From: Halegenticoccus soli
Lineage (GTDB): Archaea; Halobacteriota; Halobacteria; Halobacteriales; Haloferacaceae
DNA: 64,000 nt
Direction: 5' to 3'
Assembly: GCF_002844195.1 (NCBI RefSeq)
Contig: NZ_PEND01000003.1
Span: forward strand, 310,001 to 374,000
Positions 3,131 through 54,253 of this stretch are shown here, one piece after another. A model generated the notes under the pieces. The model was not told where the DNA came from. It worked only from the letters and a program-made list of their open reading frames with translations, and did no database searches. The position numbers and the translations under genes are program-made. Within the stretch, counting starts at the first letter, position 1; each line of letters begins with the position of its first letter.

Positions 3131-3781
3131 TTATCGCGATGTTGAATCCTCCTCCATCGAAGCCTCCTCCATGAACTCCTTTATTATTGCACCTTCGGCC
3201 CGGTGGAGAATGCCGCTCGCCGTCGCCTTATTGACATTGAGCGCATCTGCGAGGTCGGTGAGCGAACTGCCGCGTGGTGAGTCGTAGTACCCACGTTCGA
3301 GTGCTTTAGATACGAATTCTCGCTGGCGTTCGGTGAGCAGCTCGGTTGGGTCGTGCGACTGAGTTACGGATAGAAGTTCATACTTCACGCCCACCGCATC
3401 GAGTTGATCTTTGAACGCCGAGAGCCGATCATGGGTAGTGGTAGACTCGGCGTGGATCCAACCATCACGAAGCACCAACGGAAATGGAGGTGGGTTTCCA
3501 GATTCCCTTGCAGCTATTCCTGCGCCTGGCTCGGAGTCTTGGAGAAACTGGATAACTGCTTTGTGGTCGTCAATGTGAAGTACCTCGTATGTGAGTACCT
3601 CCGAATCATTCTCGAGAATGTCGGTCACTGTCCCCGGTTCAAGCGATTCGATTTCAACAAGGGTCATGTGTCCTGTATCTGTCGAGATGGACGTCAGGAT
3701 ACGGAACGTGGCATCCGGGTATGCTTTCGACAGCTCGGCGAGACTCCCAGATGCTTCAACCTTCATTCGGACTTTCGGCAT
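3131..3781 (-). CDS. HTH_10 (bacterio-opsin activator-like) regulator, locus 1
   Basis: A 216-residue transcription regulator. Residues 1-150 form the variable sensory part; the C-terminus from LLTERQREFVSKALERGYYDSPRG through LADALNVNKATASGILHRAEGAIIKEF is the HTH_10 domain typical of Bat-like regulators. It is clearly paralogous to the protein at 52368-52997 (shared starts MPKVRMKV/MPRVRLKV, GYYDSPRG/GYYDNPRG, HRAEGAIIK/HRAEGEIIK). The palindrome AACATGTT lies 40 bases before its start, and the downstream neighbours on the same strand (transcribed towards it) are a membrane protein and a halocyanin. It lacks visible Cys clusters or PAS/GAF domains, so its signal is unknown. It probably regulates itself and the halocyanin genes. 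Confidence 0.85.
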   Translation of the reverse strand: MPKVRMKVEASGSLAELSKAYPDATFRILTSISTDTGHMTLVEIESLEPGTVTDILENDSEVLTYEVLHIDDHKAVIQFLQDSEPGAGIAARESGNPPPFPLVLRDGWIHAESTTTHDRLSAFKDQLDAVGVKYELLSVTQSHDPTELLTERQREFVSKALERGYYDSPRGSSLTDLADALNVNKATASGILHRAEGAIIKEFMEEASMEEDSTSR

Positions 3782-3820
3782 ACTGTTTCAGAGGTCAGCC
3801 ACCTATTCAGCGATAACGCA

Positions 3821-3828
3821 AACATGTT
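3821..3828. promoter_or_regulatory. AACATGTT operator, site 1
   Basis: Core AACATGTT within CGCAAACATGTTCGCG, a near-perfect 16-base palindrome, exactly 40 bases upstream of the HTH_10 start at 3781. The paralogous regulator at 52997 has the same core at the same distance. Confidence 0.6.
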
Positions 3829-3851
3829 CGCGTTCGTCGAATGCTTGAAGT

Positions 3852-4658
3852 TCAACTCAATTCGGTCAGGGTGTCCCCACTCCTCCGGTGGCTCACCTCT
3901 CCAGCTACGATGAGCCCCGCAGCCCAGATGATGGCGAGTCCACCCCATATTGGCCCGGCACTTGACGCGAGCGCAGGATGTAGTATGGAGGTGACCCCAA
4001 GTACACCTACGAATCCTGCGGCACTCCAGAGCGGGATCCGCCAGCCGACGGGTTTCACACTGGCCAGCAGCCCCAACAGCAGGACGAGCAGGGAATACGT
4101 AACCATGTCCGCGTAGTGGTCAAGCTGAGCGTGGACGTCCCCTGACGCCTGGAGAGCATACTGATCTGCTGCGTAGATGGTGAATGGAATCCCCGCGAGG
4201 ACGACTAACCCGACCAGAACGGGACTGACCGAGCCCGCTGTCCGAACCCGGAGGACATCCCAGCCAGCGGGGTGCAGTGCAAAGTCTACCAACAACAAGC
4301 CGCCTAGGATCAACGCGGACGGGAAGATGAACCCCGTTAGGAAGTTCGATCCGGTGATGACAATGTTGACGAGCACGGCTTGCTGGATCCCCGCGACCCG
4401 TCTCTCGGGTTCATAGAGTTGGACGAGGAGTCCGAAGACGACCGTCCAGAGTATCGTGACGAGCGCGAGGTCGTGGAGGTGGTGAACCCCTGGCTCACTA
4501 ACAGTCCAGGCTGTGAAGATGAACGCGAGCGTGTCACCAAGGAAGGCCGTCATGAGTGCGAGGATCGTCACAATCGTCACGTAGAACGCGACGCGACGGA
4601 GGCCCCCAGCTTCTCGAAGTAGCTCCATTGATCGCTTCTGAGTTGTGTCAGCGGTCAT
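3852..4658 (-). CDS. Polytopic membrane protein next to halocyanin
   Basis: A 268-residue integral membrane protein with about seven or eight hydrophobic helices (for example VAFYVTIVTILALMTAFLG, VTYSLLVLLLGLLASV, WGGLAIIWAAGLIVAG). No transporter signature or haem-binding His pattern that I recognise. Its start overlaps the stop of the halocyanin gene as ATGA, so the two are co-translated; it may anchor, or exchange electrons with, the copper protein. Its 3' end lies 71 bases before the start of the HTH_10 gene. The family is unknown to me. Confidence 0.75.
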   Translation of the reverse strand: MTADTTQKRSMELLREAGGLRRVAFYVTIVTILALMTAFLGDTLAFIFTAWTVSEPGVHHLHDLALVTILWTVVFGLLVQLYEPERRVAGIQQAVLVNIVITGSNFLTGFIFPSALILGGLLLVDFALHPAGWDVLRVRTAGSVSPVLVGLVVLAGIPFTIYAADQYALQASGDVHAQLDHYADMVTYSLLVLLLGLLASVKPVGWRIPLWSAAGFVGVLGVTSILHPALASSAGPIWGGLAIIWAAGLIVAGEVSHRRSGDTLTELS

Positions 4659-5137
4659 TGGCCCTGTGCGCTTCCGTGCCCAGATTCTGCTGATGGTTCG
4701 ATGATGATGGTGCCGGTCATCCCGGCCTGCTCGTGGGGGATGCAGAAGTAGTCGTACTCGCCAGGCACTTCGAACGTGTGGCTGTATTCCTCGCCCTGGT
4801 AGAGGACACCAGCACCCTCGGATGCTCCCCTTCGGGCGGCCGCCTCGGTCATGAAGTTACCACTGGCGAAGTACTCCGCTTCTCGTGGGAGCTCCTCCTC
4901 ATAGGCGGTTACCGTGTGCGGAGCGTACCCCACGGTCCGCCAGACGACCGTCTCTCTAGCAGGAATCGTGGCCCTGTCAGGTTCGAATCGGTTATCGTCA
5001 GTCATCTCGATGAGTGTTCCGTCCACGTCCGGGGATGCAGCACCAGAGGACCCTATGCCGAGACATCCTGCGCTTGAAAGGCCGATGGCAACCCCACCAC
5101 CGACACAAATGTCTTGGAGGATTTCACGCCGATACAT
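4655..5137 (-). CDS. Halocyanin-like blue copper lipoprotein, locus 1
   Basis: A 160-residue type 1 copper protein exposed on the outer face of the membrane. The N-terminus has a signal-like stretch with the lipobox SSAGC, so it is likely lipid-anchored. Copper ligands fit the plastocyanin pattern: His in APHTVT, then Cys, His and Met in YFCIPHEQAGMTG. Such proteins shuttle electrons between membrane complexes. It is the first gene of a two-gene operon with the following membrane protein (4-base overlap). Its 5' region holds an AACATGTT site at 5276-5283, about 140 bases from the start. Confidence 0.9.
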   Translation of the reverse strand: MYRREILQDICVGGGVAIGLSSAGCLGIGSSGAASPDVDGTLIEMTDDNRFEPDRATIPARETVVWRTVGYAPHTVTAYEEELPREAEYFASGNFMTEAAARRGASEGAGVLYQGEEYSHTFEVPGEYDYFCIPHEQAGMTGTIIIEPSAESGHGSAQGQ

Positions 5138-5275
5138 TAGCTACTCCTCAGGTCTGTTGAGCGAAGGTGTCCCTCGACAAGGGCCTGGGCAGGTTGGCTT
5201 TCTTCACATTCGGTTGGTCGCGTGATTCGCGCCATGGCAGAGGGAAGGGACCGAATCTTCGTGGATATTGGCGCA

Positions 5276-5283
5276 AACATGTT
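5276..5283. promoter_or_regulatory. AACATGTT operator, site 2
   Basis: Core inside GCGCAAACATGTTTCCC, between the divergent halocyanin gene (start 5137) and the small membrane protein gene (start 5429); 83 bases from site 3. Confidence 0.55.
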
Positions 5284-5358
5284 TCCCTCCTTGTGACGGC
5301 GCTACTCTGTCGGCTGCAGATGGATTTTCGACGGCAAGGAGACAATGCAGCAGAGGGC

Positions 5359-5366
5359 AACATGTT
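5359..5366. promoter_or_regulatory. AACATGTT operator, site 3
   Basis: Lies in GGCAACATGTTTCCGAGAAT, 63 bases before the ATG at 5429. The same block, apart from two bases, occurs at 53121-53138 before the membrane protein of locus 2. Confidence 0.6.
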
Positions 5367-5428
5367 TCCGAGAATTGCTATTGGAATTGGCGACAACGTC
5401 CAATCTGCAACCCCTGACCGATGAATCC

Positions 5429-5665
5429 ATGACTGAGACGACCAGGAAGAATGCTCCCGGACAGGTACTATTCGACGTTCCATGGACCCGAGTTGAAGGG
5501 GTGCTGGCCGTTGGAGCCCTCCTCACCTCGTTCATATGGTTCCTCGGGATGCCTACGGGAATGGCGATCGGAGTCGGCTTCGGACTCGTCCTCCTCCTCG
5601 ACTTCTTTCGTGCATTGATCTTTGACTCTGCACGGTCCAGTGGGTCACGATTCACCCCCACCTGA
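5429..5665 (+). CDS. Small two-helix membrane protein
   Basis: A 78-residue protein starting MTETTRKNAPG with two hydrophobic helices (VEGVLAVGALLTSFIWFLGM and MAIGVGFGLVLLLDFFRAL). This ATG was preferred over one at 5345 because the earlier one would put the AACATGTT block inside the gene. Function unknown. It is divergent from the halocyanin operon and appears to share its control region. Confidence 0.6.
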   Translation: MTETTRKNAPGQVLFDVPWTRVEGVLAVGALLTSFIWFLGMPTGMAIGVGFGLVLLLDFFRALIFDSARSSGSRFTPT

Positions 5666-50973: not shown

Positions 50974-51768
50974 TTACTCTCCAGACTCACGCGCACCCAT
51001 CGCCTGGGTGACATGCGTGAGCGTAACCAAGCCAAGTCCGCCGACGAAATTGCCAATTGTCACAACTGTAATCATCACCGCGAGTGTGCCAAAGCCGACA
51101 TTCGCCCCGAACAGGATACCGAAGAAGACGTGCAACGCGGTGACGACGACGTGATTAAACGGTCCGAGGGCGAGGAGAAACCCCACAACGTACGCTAGGG
51201 TGGCTCGGGTCCGGACGCTGTTGACAGCCACAAGAAGGAATGACAGCAGACTCACGAGTGCACCTCCTGCGATTGCGCTCGCAAACCACGCTCTAGCTCC
51301 TTGGCGTGCGGTTTCTTCTGCGAACGCAGTCAATACTTCTCCCGTTCCTGGAGGAAGTGCGCCGTGGACAGTGAAGGTAAGCGCGAAGAGGCCCCCACCG
51401 AGTAAATTGAACACGAGCGTAATGACCCAGAGACGAAAGAGTGAGGAAAGCATCCACGATCCAGAGCGGTCGGCTGCCGCCGCGACCGGGTCGAAGAAAT
51501 TTTCGTTGAATAATTCCGTCCGCCCCACGACGAGGAACACAAGGCCAGCCCCAAAGGCAAGTGCCCCCGTGATTTTGGCTATCTCGCCGAAGTGTGGCTG
51601 AACAATCGCTTCAACAATGCCGAGTGCGACGATGCCAAAGACGATCGTGAATCCGGCGATGAAGCTGGTTGAGACCAATTCAAGCAGCGACTGATCGAGT
51701 CGGCGCGTACCTTCCTCGACGGCTCGATTAAATATCTCACCCGGACGAGGAGTAGGAGTCTCAGTCAC
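50974..51768 (-). CDS. Formate/nitrite transporter (FNT) family channel
   Basis: A 264-residue membrane protein with six helices and the FNT blocks GALAFGAGLVFLVVGRTELFNENF and LGPFNHVVVTALHVFFGILFGANV, which contribute the pore His and constrictions. Substrates in the family include formate, nitrite and hydrosulfide. No partner enzyme lies beside it. Confidence 0.88.
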   Translation of the reverse strand: MTETPTPRPGEIFNRAVEEGTRRLDQSLLELVSTSFIAGFTIVFGIVALGIVEAIVQPHFGEIAKITGALAFGAGLVFLVVGRTELFNENFFDPVAAAADRSGSWMLSSLFRLWVITLVFNLLGGGLFALTFTVHGALPPGTGEVLTAFAEETARQGARAWFASAIAGGALVSLLSFLLVAVNSVRTRATLAYVVGFLLALGPFNHVVVTALHVFFGILFGANVGFGTLAVMITVVTIGNFVGGLGLVTLTHVTQAMGARESGE

Positions 51769-52067
51769 ATCGTGAGTACTGGTTTAACACGCAAAAACCC
51801 ACGGTTGAGAATGACGGTCTTGTCTCGAGTGATGAACCGTTCCTCACCGTTACCGCCACGTCTCGTAACTCTCTAGAAATATGATATAGGTAGTAAATCC
51901 ATAGCCAAAGGGCAACTAATCCCAGCTGCTTAGGTTCTCACCGTCAGCTCTTACTCCGTTCGCCTGGAGTTCGTCGACGCTGGTGTAATCCGTCGTAAGT
52001 TTAGCTTGGAATGATGATAACAGGTGACAGGAGAAAATGGTTTGCACACGAATCTACTACCAGAGAT
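51769..52067. other. Intergenic region
   Basis: No gene recognised. Confidence 0.35.
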
Positions 52068-52247
52068 ATGCTGACTCGGTGGACGAACTGGACACACGTG
52101 ACGAAGGTTGATCCCGACAAATCACTCCCTGACGGCAACATCTACGCGGCGATCGCTGACACGGGCACGGATACACTCATCATCGGCGGCACCACAACCG
52201 TCACTGAACACCACGTCCGGTCGCTTCTCGGCGACCTCTCTCAGTGA
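52068..52247 (+). pseudogene. GGGP synthase N-terminal fragment
   Basis: A 59-residue frame, MLTRWTNWTHVTKVDPDKSL, IADTGTDTLIIGGTT, matches the first two strands of geranylgeranylglyceryl-phosphate synthase, including the KxDPDK phosphate-binding segment. The remaining three quarters of the barrel is missing. Bases after its stop resemble those at 1351-1375. Confidence 0.7.
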
Positions 52248-52367: not shown

Positions 52368-52997
52368 CTACTGGTCACGCGGGTCGCCGATCGCGTCTTT
52401 GATGATTTCACCTTCAGCCCGATGAAGAACGCCGCTAATCACTGACTTATTCACCCCAAGTTCGTCGGCAAGACCAGTCAACGAACACCCTCGTGGATTA
52501 TCGTAGTATCCCCGTTTGATAGCGACTGTGAGGATTTCTCGTTGACGAGCGGTGAGCGAATCGAGAACGTTGTATCCCTCGGTGATAGAGAGAATCTCGT
52601 ACTTGACGTTTCGTTCGTCGAGTGACTCCCACAGGGCCGCCATCTTTGACTCCGGCATCACGAACTCGATGAAGAGATACCCGTCACGGGCGACGACTGG
52701 AGTCGTCGGGTGGTACTCGATATCTTCGGAAACGAAATATCCCTCCGGTGGCTCCCCTTCAAAGGTTACGACGATCGTATCTTCATCGCTGTGTAGGATC
52801 TCGATAGTATCTGCTTCCCAATGCGCCAGTGCTTCGTGAATGAAGCGGTCCGGATCATCCGTCCGAATTTCCAAGACGCTACAGACGCCCTTATCAGTCG
52901 GATAATTCGCTAAAAACCGGATAACAGTCTCCGGAAATGCCTCGGCAACGGCTTCCATATCCGGCATCGGGCCGACCTTGAGGCGAACTCGTGGCAT
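52368..52997 (-). CDS. HTH_10 (bacterio-opsin activator-like) regulator, locus 2
   Basis: A 209-residue paralogue of the regulator at 3131-3781, sharing MPRVRLKV at the start, the ARDGYLFIEF/LRDGWIHAES segment and the HTH_10 end (LTARQREILTVAIKRGYYDNPRGCSLTGLADELGVNKSVISGVLHRAEGEIIKD). The AACATGTT core sits 40 bases before its ATG, the same as in locus 1. It is divergent from a membrane protein gene and a halocyanin gene, so it likely controls itself and these neighbours. Confidence 0.87.
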   Translation of the reverse strand: MPRVRLKVGPMPDMEAVAEAFPETVIRFLANYPTDKGVCSVLEIRTDDPDRFIHEALAHWEADTIEILHSDEDTIVVTFEGEPPEGYFVSEDIEYHPTTPVVARDGYLFIEFVMPESKMAALWESLDERNVKYEILSITEGYNVLDSLTARQREILTVAIKRGYYDNPRGCSLTGLADELGVNKSVISGVLHRAEGEIIKDAIGDPRDQ

Positions 52998-53036
52998 GAG
53001 TTTCCTTGGCTTCGTGGGATAATGGGGATAGAGGTA

Positions 53037-53044
53037 AACATGTT
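53037..53044. promoter_or_regulatory. AACATGTT operator, site 4
   Basis: Within GGTAAACATGTTCACC, a near-perfect 16-base palindrome 40 bases upstream of the HTH_10 ATG at 52997. Confidence 0.6.
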
Positions 53045-53122
53045 CACCTACGTTTCCTGTGGTTAAACCCCGGAAGTTCCTCCATGGAACGGAGGGAATT
53101 CCAGTGGCTCACTCCGCAGGGC

Positions 53123-53130
53123 AACATGTT
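53123..53130. promoter_or_regulatory. AACATGTT operator, site 5
   Basis: Within GGCAACATGTTCACGAGAAT, 41 bases before the GTG at 53171 and 86 bases from site 4. The flanks match site 3. Confidence 0.6.
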
Positions 53131-53170
53131 CACGAGAATTTTCAATCAGGTCTCCGCGAAGCCTTCTAAT

Positions 53171-53620
53171 GTGACGCATTCAGCCCAAGTAGAGAAGACA
53201 GACCAAATTACTACAATCCCATCACGAGTTCGATGGGCTACGTACTGCTACCTCGGAGCATCTCTTCTCCTTACAGCCAGTGTTCTCATTCAAGTATACA
53301 TTGCCGGTCTGGCTGTGTTTGTGGATCCAGCTCGGTGGAGCACCCACGTTTCGTTCGGCAATATTCTGCCGGTATTCCTACTGATACTGTTCGTACTTGC
53401 GTTCATCGGACGTCTACCGCGGATTCACAAGGGACTTCCAGTTGTGATTTTCCTCTTATTCTTCGTGCAATTCAGTACCGCCCATCGGTTTGGGTCGCTC
53501 GTCGGGGCAATTCACCCCGTTAATGCAGTTGTGATATTCTGGCTGTCAACGGTTACTGTCCAGCGCGCATGGGCGGAAGTCACGGCTGAAGGAGGCTCCA
53601 CAGGAGATCACACATCATAA
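53171..53620 (+). CDS. Four-helix membrane protein, DUF6220-like
   Basis: A 149-residue protein with four hydrophobic helices (ATYCYLGASLLLTASVLIQVYIAGLAVFV, GNILPVFLLILFVLAFIG, LPVVIFLLFFVQFSTAHR, AIHPVNAVVIFWLSTVTVQRA). His residues near helix ends (STHVSFG, TAHRF, AIHPVNA) could bind haem, but this is a guess. The GTG at 53171 is used because it lies after the operator block; a longer frame from 53006 would run through it. The family resembles DUF6220 from memory. Followed by the halocyanin gene 123 bases downstream. Confidence 0.6.
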   Translation: MTHSAQVEKTDQITTIPSRVRWATYCYLGASLLLTASVLIQVYIAGLAVFVDPARWSTHVSFGNILPVFLLILFVLAFIGRLPRIHKGLPVVIFLLFFVQFSTAHRFGSLVGAIHPVNAVVIFWLSTVTVQRAWAEVTAEGGSTGDHTS

Positions 53621-53743: not shown

Positions 53744-54253
53744 ATGACTGAAGAGTTCATAAATTACTCTCGACGCACCGTATTTCGAATACTGGGAGCG
53801 ACAGCAGTCTCCACAGCCTTAGCAGGGTGCCTTGGCGACTCCGGGGAGGAGACCGACACGACGAGGACTCCTGATGGGAGGTACGTCGATTCTGCTCCCG
53901 ACTACGATGGCTGGTTCGATGACGTTAGCAACTACAGTGGAACCGTGGACAGAAGGGGACAGGACGAGGTAATCGTACGTGTTGGTGCGAGGGAGCAAGG
54001 AATGGCCTTTGCCCCTCCAGCAGTGATGGTCTCCCTAGGCACGACCGTCGTCTGGGAATGGACCGGTAATGGAGGCACCCACAACGTCGTTGCACAGAAT
54101 AGCGAATTCGAGTCAGAGTATTCATCCTCGGACGGGTATACGTTTGAATACACGTTCGACGGTGAGGGTGTCTACAAGTACGTTTGTGAACCGCACCGTT
54201 CGACGGGAATGAAGGGAGCGGTCACCGTCGAGTCGCAAGGGGGAGGTGTGTAA
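53744..54253 (+). CDS. Halocyanin, locus 2
   Basis: A 169-residue blue copper lipoprotein. The N-terminus has twin Arg (YSRRTVFR) and lipobox LAGC, indicating Tat export and lipid anchoring. Copper ligands: His in GGTHNVV, then Cys, His and Met in YVCEPHRSTGMKG. Residues 45-75 (YVDSAPDYDGWFDDVSNYSG) are the halocyanin-specific lead segment. Paralogous in role to 4655-5137. Confidence 0.92.
   Translation: MTEEFINYSRRTVFRILGATAVSTALAGCLGDSGEETDTTRTPDGRYVDSAPDYDGWFDDVSNYSGTVDRRGQDEVIVRVGAREQGMAFAPPAVMVSLGTTVVWEWTGNGGTHNVVAQNSEFESEYSSSDGYTFEYTFDGEGVYKYVCEPHRSTGMKGAVTVESQGGGV

Follow-up and report, generated by a model that had tools for sequence, protein, structure and literature searches.

The window analysed here, a 64-kb stretch of haloarchaeal DNA, carries two gene sets in which an HTH_10 regulator gene, a halocyanin gene and a gene for a histidine-rich membrane protein lie together under palindromes with the core AACATGTT. 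Judged by sequence comparison, both sets are real conserved units. We consider it fairly likely that each is an electron-carrier unit complete in itself, served by an HTH_10 factor that is dedicated to it, regulates its own gene and would act at a palindrome marked by its flanks. The motif and the HTH_10 family are known. In the literature searched, no description was found of the units, of their conservation or of flanks specific to a clade.

Two gene sets with a common palindrome core

The gene content of set 1, checked against Pfam profiles, is as the earlier note had described: an HTH_10 gene, a membrane protein gene overlapping a halocyanin gene, and a divergent gene for a small membrane protein. 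HTH1 (3131..3781, minus strand; 216 aa) matches PF04967 with E 1e-15. MEM1 (3852..4658, minus strand) encodes a 268-aa membrane protein with eight predicted transmembrane helices, and its gene overlaps by 4 bases that of HCY1 (4655..5137, minus strand), a halocyanin-like type-1 copper protein with a signal peptide (Copper-bind E 2e-13). A 32-aa ORF beginning MARITRPTECEESQ (5137..5235, minus strand) starts ∼44 bp from the site upstream of HCY1, and its stop overlaps the HCY1 ATG (TAATG); its first six codons are similar in another genome (G225), and a role as leader peptide is offered as speculation. SMP1 (5429..5665, plus strand), a 78-aa small membrane protein with probably two helices, has homologs that are 79% identical in G225 and 72% identical in Natronococcus sp. 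CG52; its start is most likely the ATG at 5429 rather than 5345, because homologs in two other genomes conserve it. Just downstream of set 1, at 1522-2841, lie pieces resembling a TnpB-type transposon gene, with C-terminal CxxC motifs.

Set 2 comprises HTH2 (52368..52997, minus strand; 209 aa, PF04967 E 6e-16), a DUF6220 membrane protein (53171..53620, plus strand; PF19728 E 8e-18, 65 bits against a cut-off of 29.8) and the halocyanin HCY2 with a TAT-type signal (53744..54253, plus strand; Copper-bind E 1e-17, TIGR03102 141.4 bits). The DUF6220 protein has 149 aa when read from the GTG at 53171, most likely its start because this codon is conserved in aligned orthologs. The earlier note had called the second set paralogous to the first, and this is right for the HTH_10 proteins (39% identity), the halocyanins (∼25%) and the presence of two more sites; the membrane proteins, by contrast, are unrelated. 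A formate/nitrite transporter gene ∼600 bp away (50974-51768, minus strand) was rejected as a part of set 2, as it is not conserved beside set 2 elsewhere. A short PcrB-family fragment at 52011-52247 (78 aa of a 226-position profile) is probably a gene remnant.

The core AACATGTT occurs at 3821, 5276 and 5359 in set 1 and at 53037 and 53123 in set 2, so the three and two copies that the earlier note had counted are all in place, and all five lie in gene-start regions. One hundred dinucleotide shuffles of the window gave a mean of 0.45 copies and a maximum of 3. The whole 4.6-Mb genome has 18 copies, compared with 10 of the word read backwards, and the window therefore holds 28% of them. Site 1 (3815..3834) is the 20-bp near-perfect palindrome AACGCAAACATGTTCGCGTT, centred 43.5 bp upstream of the HTH1 ATG; site 2 (5274..5285, CAAACATGTTTC) lies upstream of HCY1-MEM1 and site 3 (5357..5368, GCAACATGTTTC then CGAGAATTGC) upstream of SMP1. 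The centre of site A (53033..53048, GGTAAACATGTTCACC) is likewise 43.5 bp upstream of the HTH2 ATG, and that of site B (53120..53133, GGCAACATGTTCAC) 44.5 bp upstream of the DUF6220 GTG; no strand is assigned to these palindromes.

Conservation of the two sets

Set 1 is entire and in the same gene order in G225, a genome from a different genus within the family (HTH1 81%, MEM1 80%, HCY1 66% and SMP1 79% identity). All three sites are found there at matching places, with sites 2 and 3 separated by 84 bp (83 bp in the window), and the site before the HTH1 homolog is a perfect 20-bp palindrome, AACGCAAACATGTTTGCGTT. In Natronococcus sp. CG52, a plasmid-borne HTH1 homolog (59%) lies opposite an SMP1 homolog (72%) and a gene for an FAD-dependent oxidoreductase (PF01494); two sites are present, at 43.5 bp from one start codon and 52.5 bp from the other.

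Set 2, with its HTH_10, DUF6220 and halocyanin genes, is present in five genomes of two other families (G041, G171, G190, G211 and G282), at identities of 73-85% for HTH2, 59-85% for DUF6220 and 60-71% for HCY2. Sites A and B, 86 bp apart in the window, are separated by 82-89 bp in loci with two exact sites. G041 has ∼1.7 kb between its two sites, and a single base of site B is altered in G211. When the spacers are aligned, the two sites stand out as conserved islands in sequence that has otherwise diverged. DUF6220 homologs found elsewhere without HTH2 are mostly without a site too.

As a separate observation, HTH_10 genes of the HTH1-like kind have expanded locally on the Natronococcus sp. 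CG52 plasmid (NZ_CP099392.1, L110), where ∼7 kb contain four such genes or gene fragments.

Relation to the denitrification motif

The earlier note did not recognise this module as described. The palindrome core, at least, is published: it is identical to the core of a denitrification motif of Haloferax mediterranei, where the semi-palindrome CGAACATGTTCG occurs in the nirK, nor and nosZ promoters and its mutation significantly lowers nos and nor promoter activity (PMC10062603). The motif as published, CGAAYATDKTYG, sits 66-79 bp before start codons, is degenerate and takes in halocyanin promoters (PMC10062603, PMC11218638). Like the window palindromes it is linked to halocyanins and to an HTH_10 gene (the 'bacterioopsin activator' gene E6P09_00735), being found before halocyanin genes and before the HTH_10 gene of the nirK-nor cluster (PMC11218638). 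The regulators acting on it were stated to be unknown (PMC10062603), and one HTH_10 gene has been proposed (PMC11218638). Unlike this motif, the window sites are flanked as GCAAAC... or GTRAAC..., lie beside their own HTH_10 paralogs and occur also in genomes without nirK. None of the five is an exact CGAACATGTTCG; the best, CAAACATGTTCG, has one mismatch, and each of the remaining four departs from it at three or more positions.

This genome itself has nirK and a qNor-type nor, with a ThiS-like gene between them. The variant CGAACGTGTTCG precedes nor as well as the ThiS-like gene next to nirK. A third HTH_10 gene, HTH3 on contig C8, has three denitrification-type sites upstream and is surrounded by DUF2249-like, cupin, NnrS-like and radical-SAM genes (all but the last named from sequence reading). 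We regard this locus (C8:125500-144500) as probably a control locus for NO and denitrification. Further sites lie nearby in the same interval (L046/L118), where COX1-family genes are also present.

Among the seven genomes that carry set 1 or set 2, nirK is present in four and gave no match in G225 (set 1) or in G190 and G171 (set 2). The units are therefore not confined to denitrifiers, and a tie to nitrite reduction was discarded as a requirement.

A fixed-distance site upstream of HTH_10 genes across the order

A scan of 146 genomes from the order gave 141 copies of CGAACATGTTCG, spread over 78 of them, compared with 5 copies of the reversed word. Among the matches listed, 28 of 75 sites are followed by an HTH_10 match at a distance of 60-96 bp; other sites precede ThiS-like, DUF2249-like, NnrS-like, cupin-like and nor genes. 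For 63 of 112 HTH_10 genes, a site that differs from the core by at most one base has its centre 36-60 bp before the start, compared with 0 and 1 in two control intervals, in a gene set of which about eight members had entered through the motif search and are slightly favoured, the others having entered by protein similarity or synteny. The motif is thus enriched upstream of these genes relative to elsewhere, and the regulatory link between HTH_10, halocyanin and membrane protein genes that the earlier note had drawn appears sound; the palindrome at their promoters is far above chance and conserved between genomes. The order-wide linkage of a fixed-distance site to one HTH_10 clade in many genera also provides a specific class of candidates for the regulators of the denitrification motif.

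Most HTH_10 genes of this class have the palindrome 40-56 bp upstream. The remaining 49 of the 112 genes are without the core there; some have other palindromes (GTGAATATATTCAC, GGAAACCGGTTTCC), and many have none evident. An AT-rich stretch follows 8-18 bp after the site centre, as expected of BRE/TATA, and the site is therefore probably just upstream of the BRE/TATA of a nearly leaderless transcript. In several HTH3-type genes (e.g. L077, L098, L122 and L151), a first palindrome at ∼44-52 bp is joined by a second at 7-14 bp before the start codon, a location to be expected if the regulator acted there in feedback repression.

Flanks follow the regulator clade

The flanks are conserved inside each set and differ between the two. 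Set 1 has the form GC(A/C)AACATGTT(T/G)GC (site type GCAAACATGTTTGC), set 2 the form GGTRAACATGTTYACC, also written GTGAACATGTTCAC (site type GGTGAACATGTTCACC), and the HTH3 clade, with the denitrification sites, the form CGAACRTGTTCG; further HTH_10 clades have GTGAATATATTCAC and GGAAACCGGTTTCC at the same place. On a tree of 98 proteins, with the window's own hybrid HTH1 site filed under CG, the operator classes require 22 changes, compared with 43.1 for shuffled labels, and none of 200 shuffles was as low. All six members of the HTH2 clade have the same operator class. This pattern of a common core with edges that differ between clusters suggests that, in the course of evolution, related regulators came to use addresses of their own.

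At residue 190 of the recognition helix (HTH1 numbering), 43 of 45 CG-class proteins have E or D, every one of the 10 proteins of the GTGAAC/GTGAAT class has G, and the 5 of the GGAAAC/GGAAC class all have K or R; two HTH1-clade genes with CG sites have V instead of E. Because the association comprises just one or two phylogenetically independent contrasts, it is a hypothesis rather than a demonstrated code, suggestive and not separable from phylogeny.

HTH1 and HTH2 are members of the HTH_10 family (57.7 and 58.5 bits for the C-terminal PF04967 domain; cut-off 23.1), and neither has a Pfam match to PAS or GAF. They share the HTH_10 domain with Bat of the Halobacterium bop regulon, where the upstream activator site (UAS) adjoins TATA. 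Whereas Bat has PAS and GAF sensor domains, these proteins are ∼210 aa long with an N-terminal part that matches neither, and we do not take them for Bat orthologs. Nor do they fit the NarO subfamily: NarO has a cysteine-rich N-terminal oxygen-sensing motif, which is without counterpart in HTH1 (zero cysteines) and HTH2 (two isolated ones). In being small and without PAS or GAF they do resemble NarO of Haloferax volcanii and DmsR of Halobacterium, HTH_10 regulators that control anaerobic respiration (PMC11218638). The CsmR motif TATCA(N4)TGATA, which has been compared with Lrp/AsnC motifs (PMC13286277), was dismissed as an identity for the window palindrome because the sequence differs.

Two local units or one regulon

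The earlier note had inferred a regulon-level unit. Almost all other exact copies of AACATGTT in the genome, however, lie within long ORFs, and the site before HTH3 is the only one of them that an HTH_10 gene of this class adjoins. We therefore abandoned a single AACATGTT regulon and, since the flanks follow the regulator clade, favour two separate units of local reach, with the HTH_10 protein encoded in each as the probable reader of its sites. In the mechanism that we propose, the HTH_10 factor, probably as a dimer, would bind a 14-20 bp palindrome with the core AACATGTT just upstream of BRE/TATA, both in front of its own gene and at the one or more divergent promoters of the unit. It would thereby set the expression of the halocyanin, an extracellular type-1 copper electron carrier, and of the histidine-rich membrane protein, which may donate electrons to it or accept them from it; the signal would presumably be oxygen, NO or redox state. 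The denitrification/NO regulon would use the same core with HTH3, a paralog, as its linked regulator, and the flanks (GC.AACATGTT.GC in set 1, GTGAACATGTTCAC in set 2, CGAACRTGTTCG in denitrification) would probably keep the paralogs apart.

Could HTH3 or some other factor instead read all sites with the AACATGTT core, making both sets outlying members of the denitrification/NO regulon with the local HTH_10 proteins further downstream? The identical core, the degenerate published motif CGAAYATDKTYG with its halocyanin promoters, the nirK and nor genes with CGAACGTGTTCG sites in this genome and the transporter near set 2 would all fit. Yet that transporter is not a conserved neighbour, exact CGAACATGTTCG is found at none of the five sites, the flanks are kept within each set and are unlike between sets, and G225, G190 and G171 carry the sets with no nirK match, so we think this unlikely. 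The same constancy of the flanks with regulator phylogeny, together with the linkage to a limited range of functions and to HTH_10 genes and the 141 occurrences against 5 of the control word, makes it very improbable that the palindromes have nothing to do with HTH_10 proteins and serve as conserved elements of the core promoter or the nucleoid, even though they lie within promoters and their binding by HTH_10 proteins is deduced from sequence.

As to the sign of regulation by the local factors, activation is favoured, from the position of the sites and from the effect reported for the core at the nos and nor promoters. Autorepression, with the site blocking TFB/TBP access until a signal frees the regulator and induction follows, seems to us rather unlikely. 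It would agree with a site that abuts the presumed BRE/TATA and with the repressor-like place of the second site in HTH3-type genes, but the HTH_10 genes of the window have the upstream site only, and a place adjacent to the promoter on its upstream side suits activators, as for Bat at the bop UAS. At the nos and nor promoters, the motif has a positive effect (PMC10062603).

More broadly, the short HTH_10 family may represent a haloarchaeal expansion of self-addressed regulators, each binding a palindrome at a fixed place before its own promoter; the half-site RAAC/T would be common to all, and the recognition helix would determine the flanks typical of a clade. Duplication of a regulator together with its site would then supply an electron-transfer unit with a switch that is new and insulated, and the CG-class member would be the reader of the denitrification motif. 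We put this forward tentatively, the balance falling a little short of even. With regulator paralogs that have separate sites in one genome, the two units of the window offer a natural case for how archaeal transcription factors split their targets.

Candidate partners of the halocyanins

The His, Cys, His and Met copper ligands are readable in both HCY1 and HCY2, and both have the Copper-bind domain; for the NCBIfam halocyanin domain (cut-off 93.8 bits), HCY2 scores 141.4 bits and HCY1 33.5 bits. MEM1 has no match among Pfam and NCBIfam family profiles. It gives a confident eight-helix model (pLDDT 88), and in 19 homologs H59, H62, H129, H176, H181 and E254 are invariant. DUF6220 gives a four-helix model (pLDDT 86) with H59 and H115 invariant. 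Histidines conserved in or near membrane helices suggest heme or copper, and through it an electron path between the membrane and the halocyanin; as neither protein has a significant fold match among PDB structures, the binding of heme or copper is a guess. The 'copper-protein redox module' of the earlier note is thus plausible, its basis being domain content only. In a first sample, MEM1 homologs in 14 other genomes have no halocyanin gene, HTH_10 gene or site nearby, which rules out MEM1 as an obligate partner. MEM1 and DUF6220 nevertheless represent two uncharacterised histidine-rich membrane families that are possible partners of halocyanins.

A subclade of HTH1-type genes (L112, L116 and L161) has CG-type sites and adjoins a recurring small multi-helix membrane protein (H...GyEH..AMIAE); beside one of these loci there is also a HiPIP gene.
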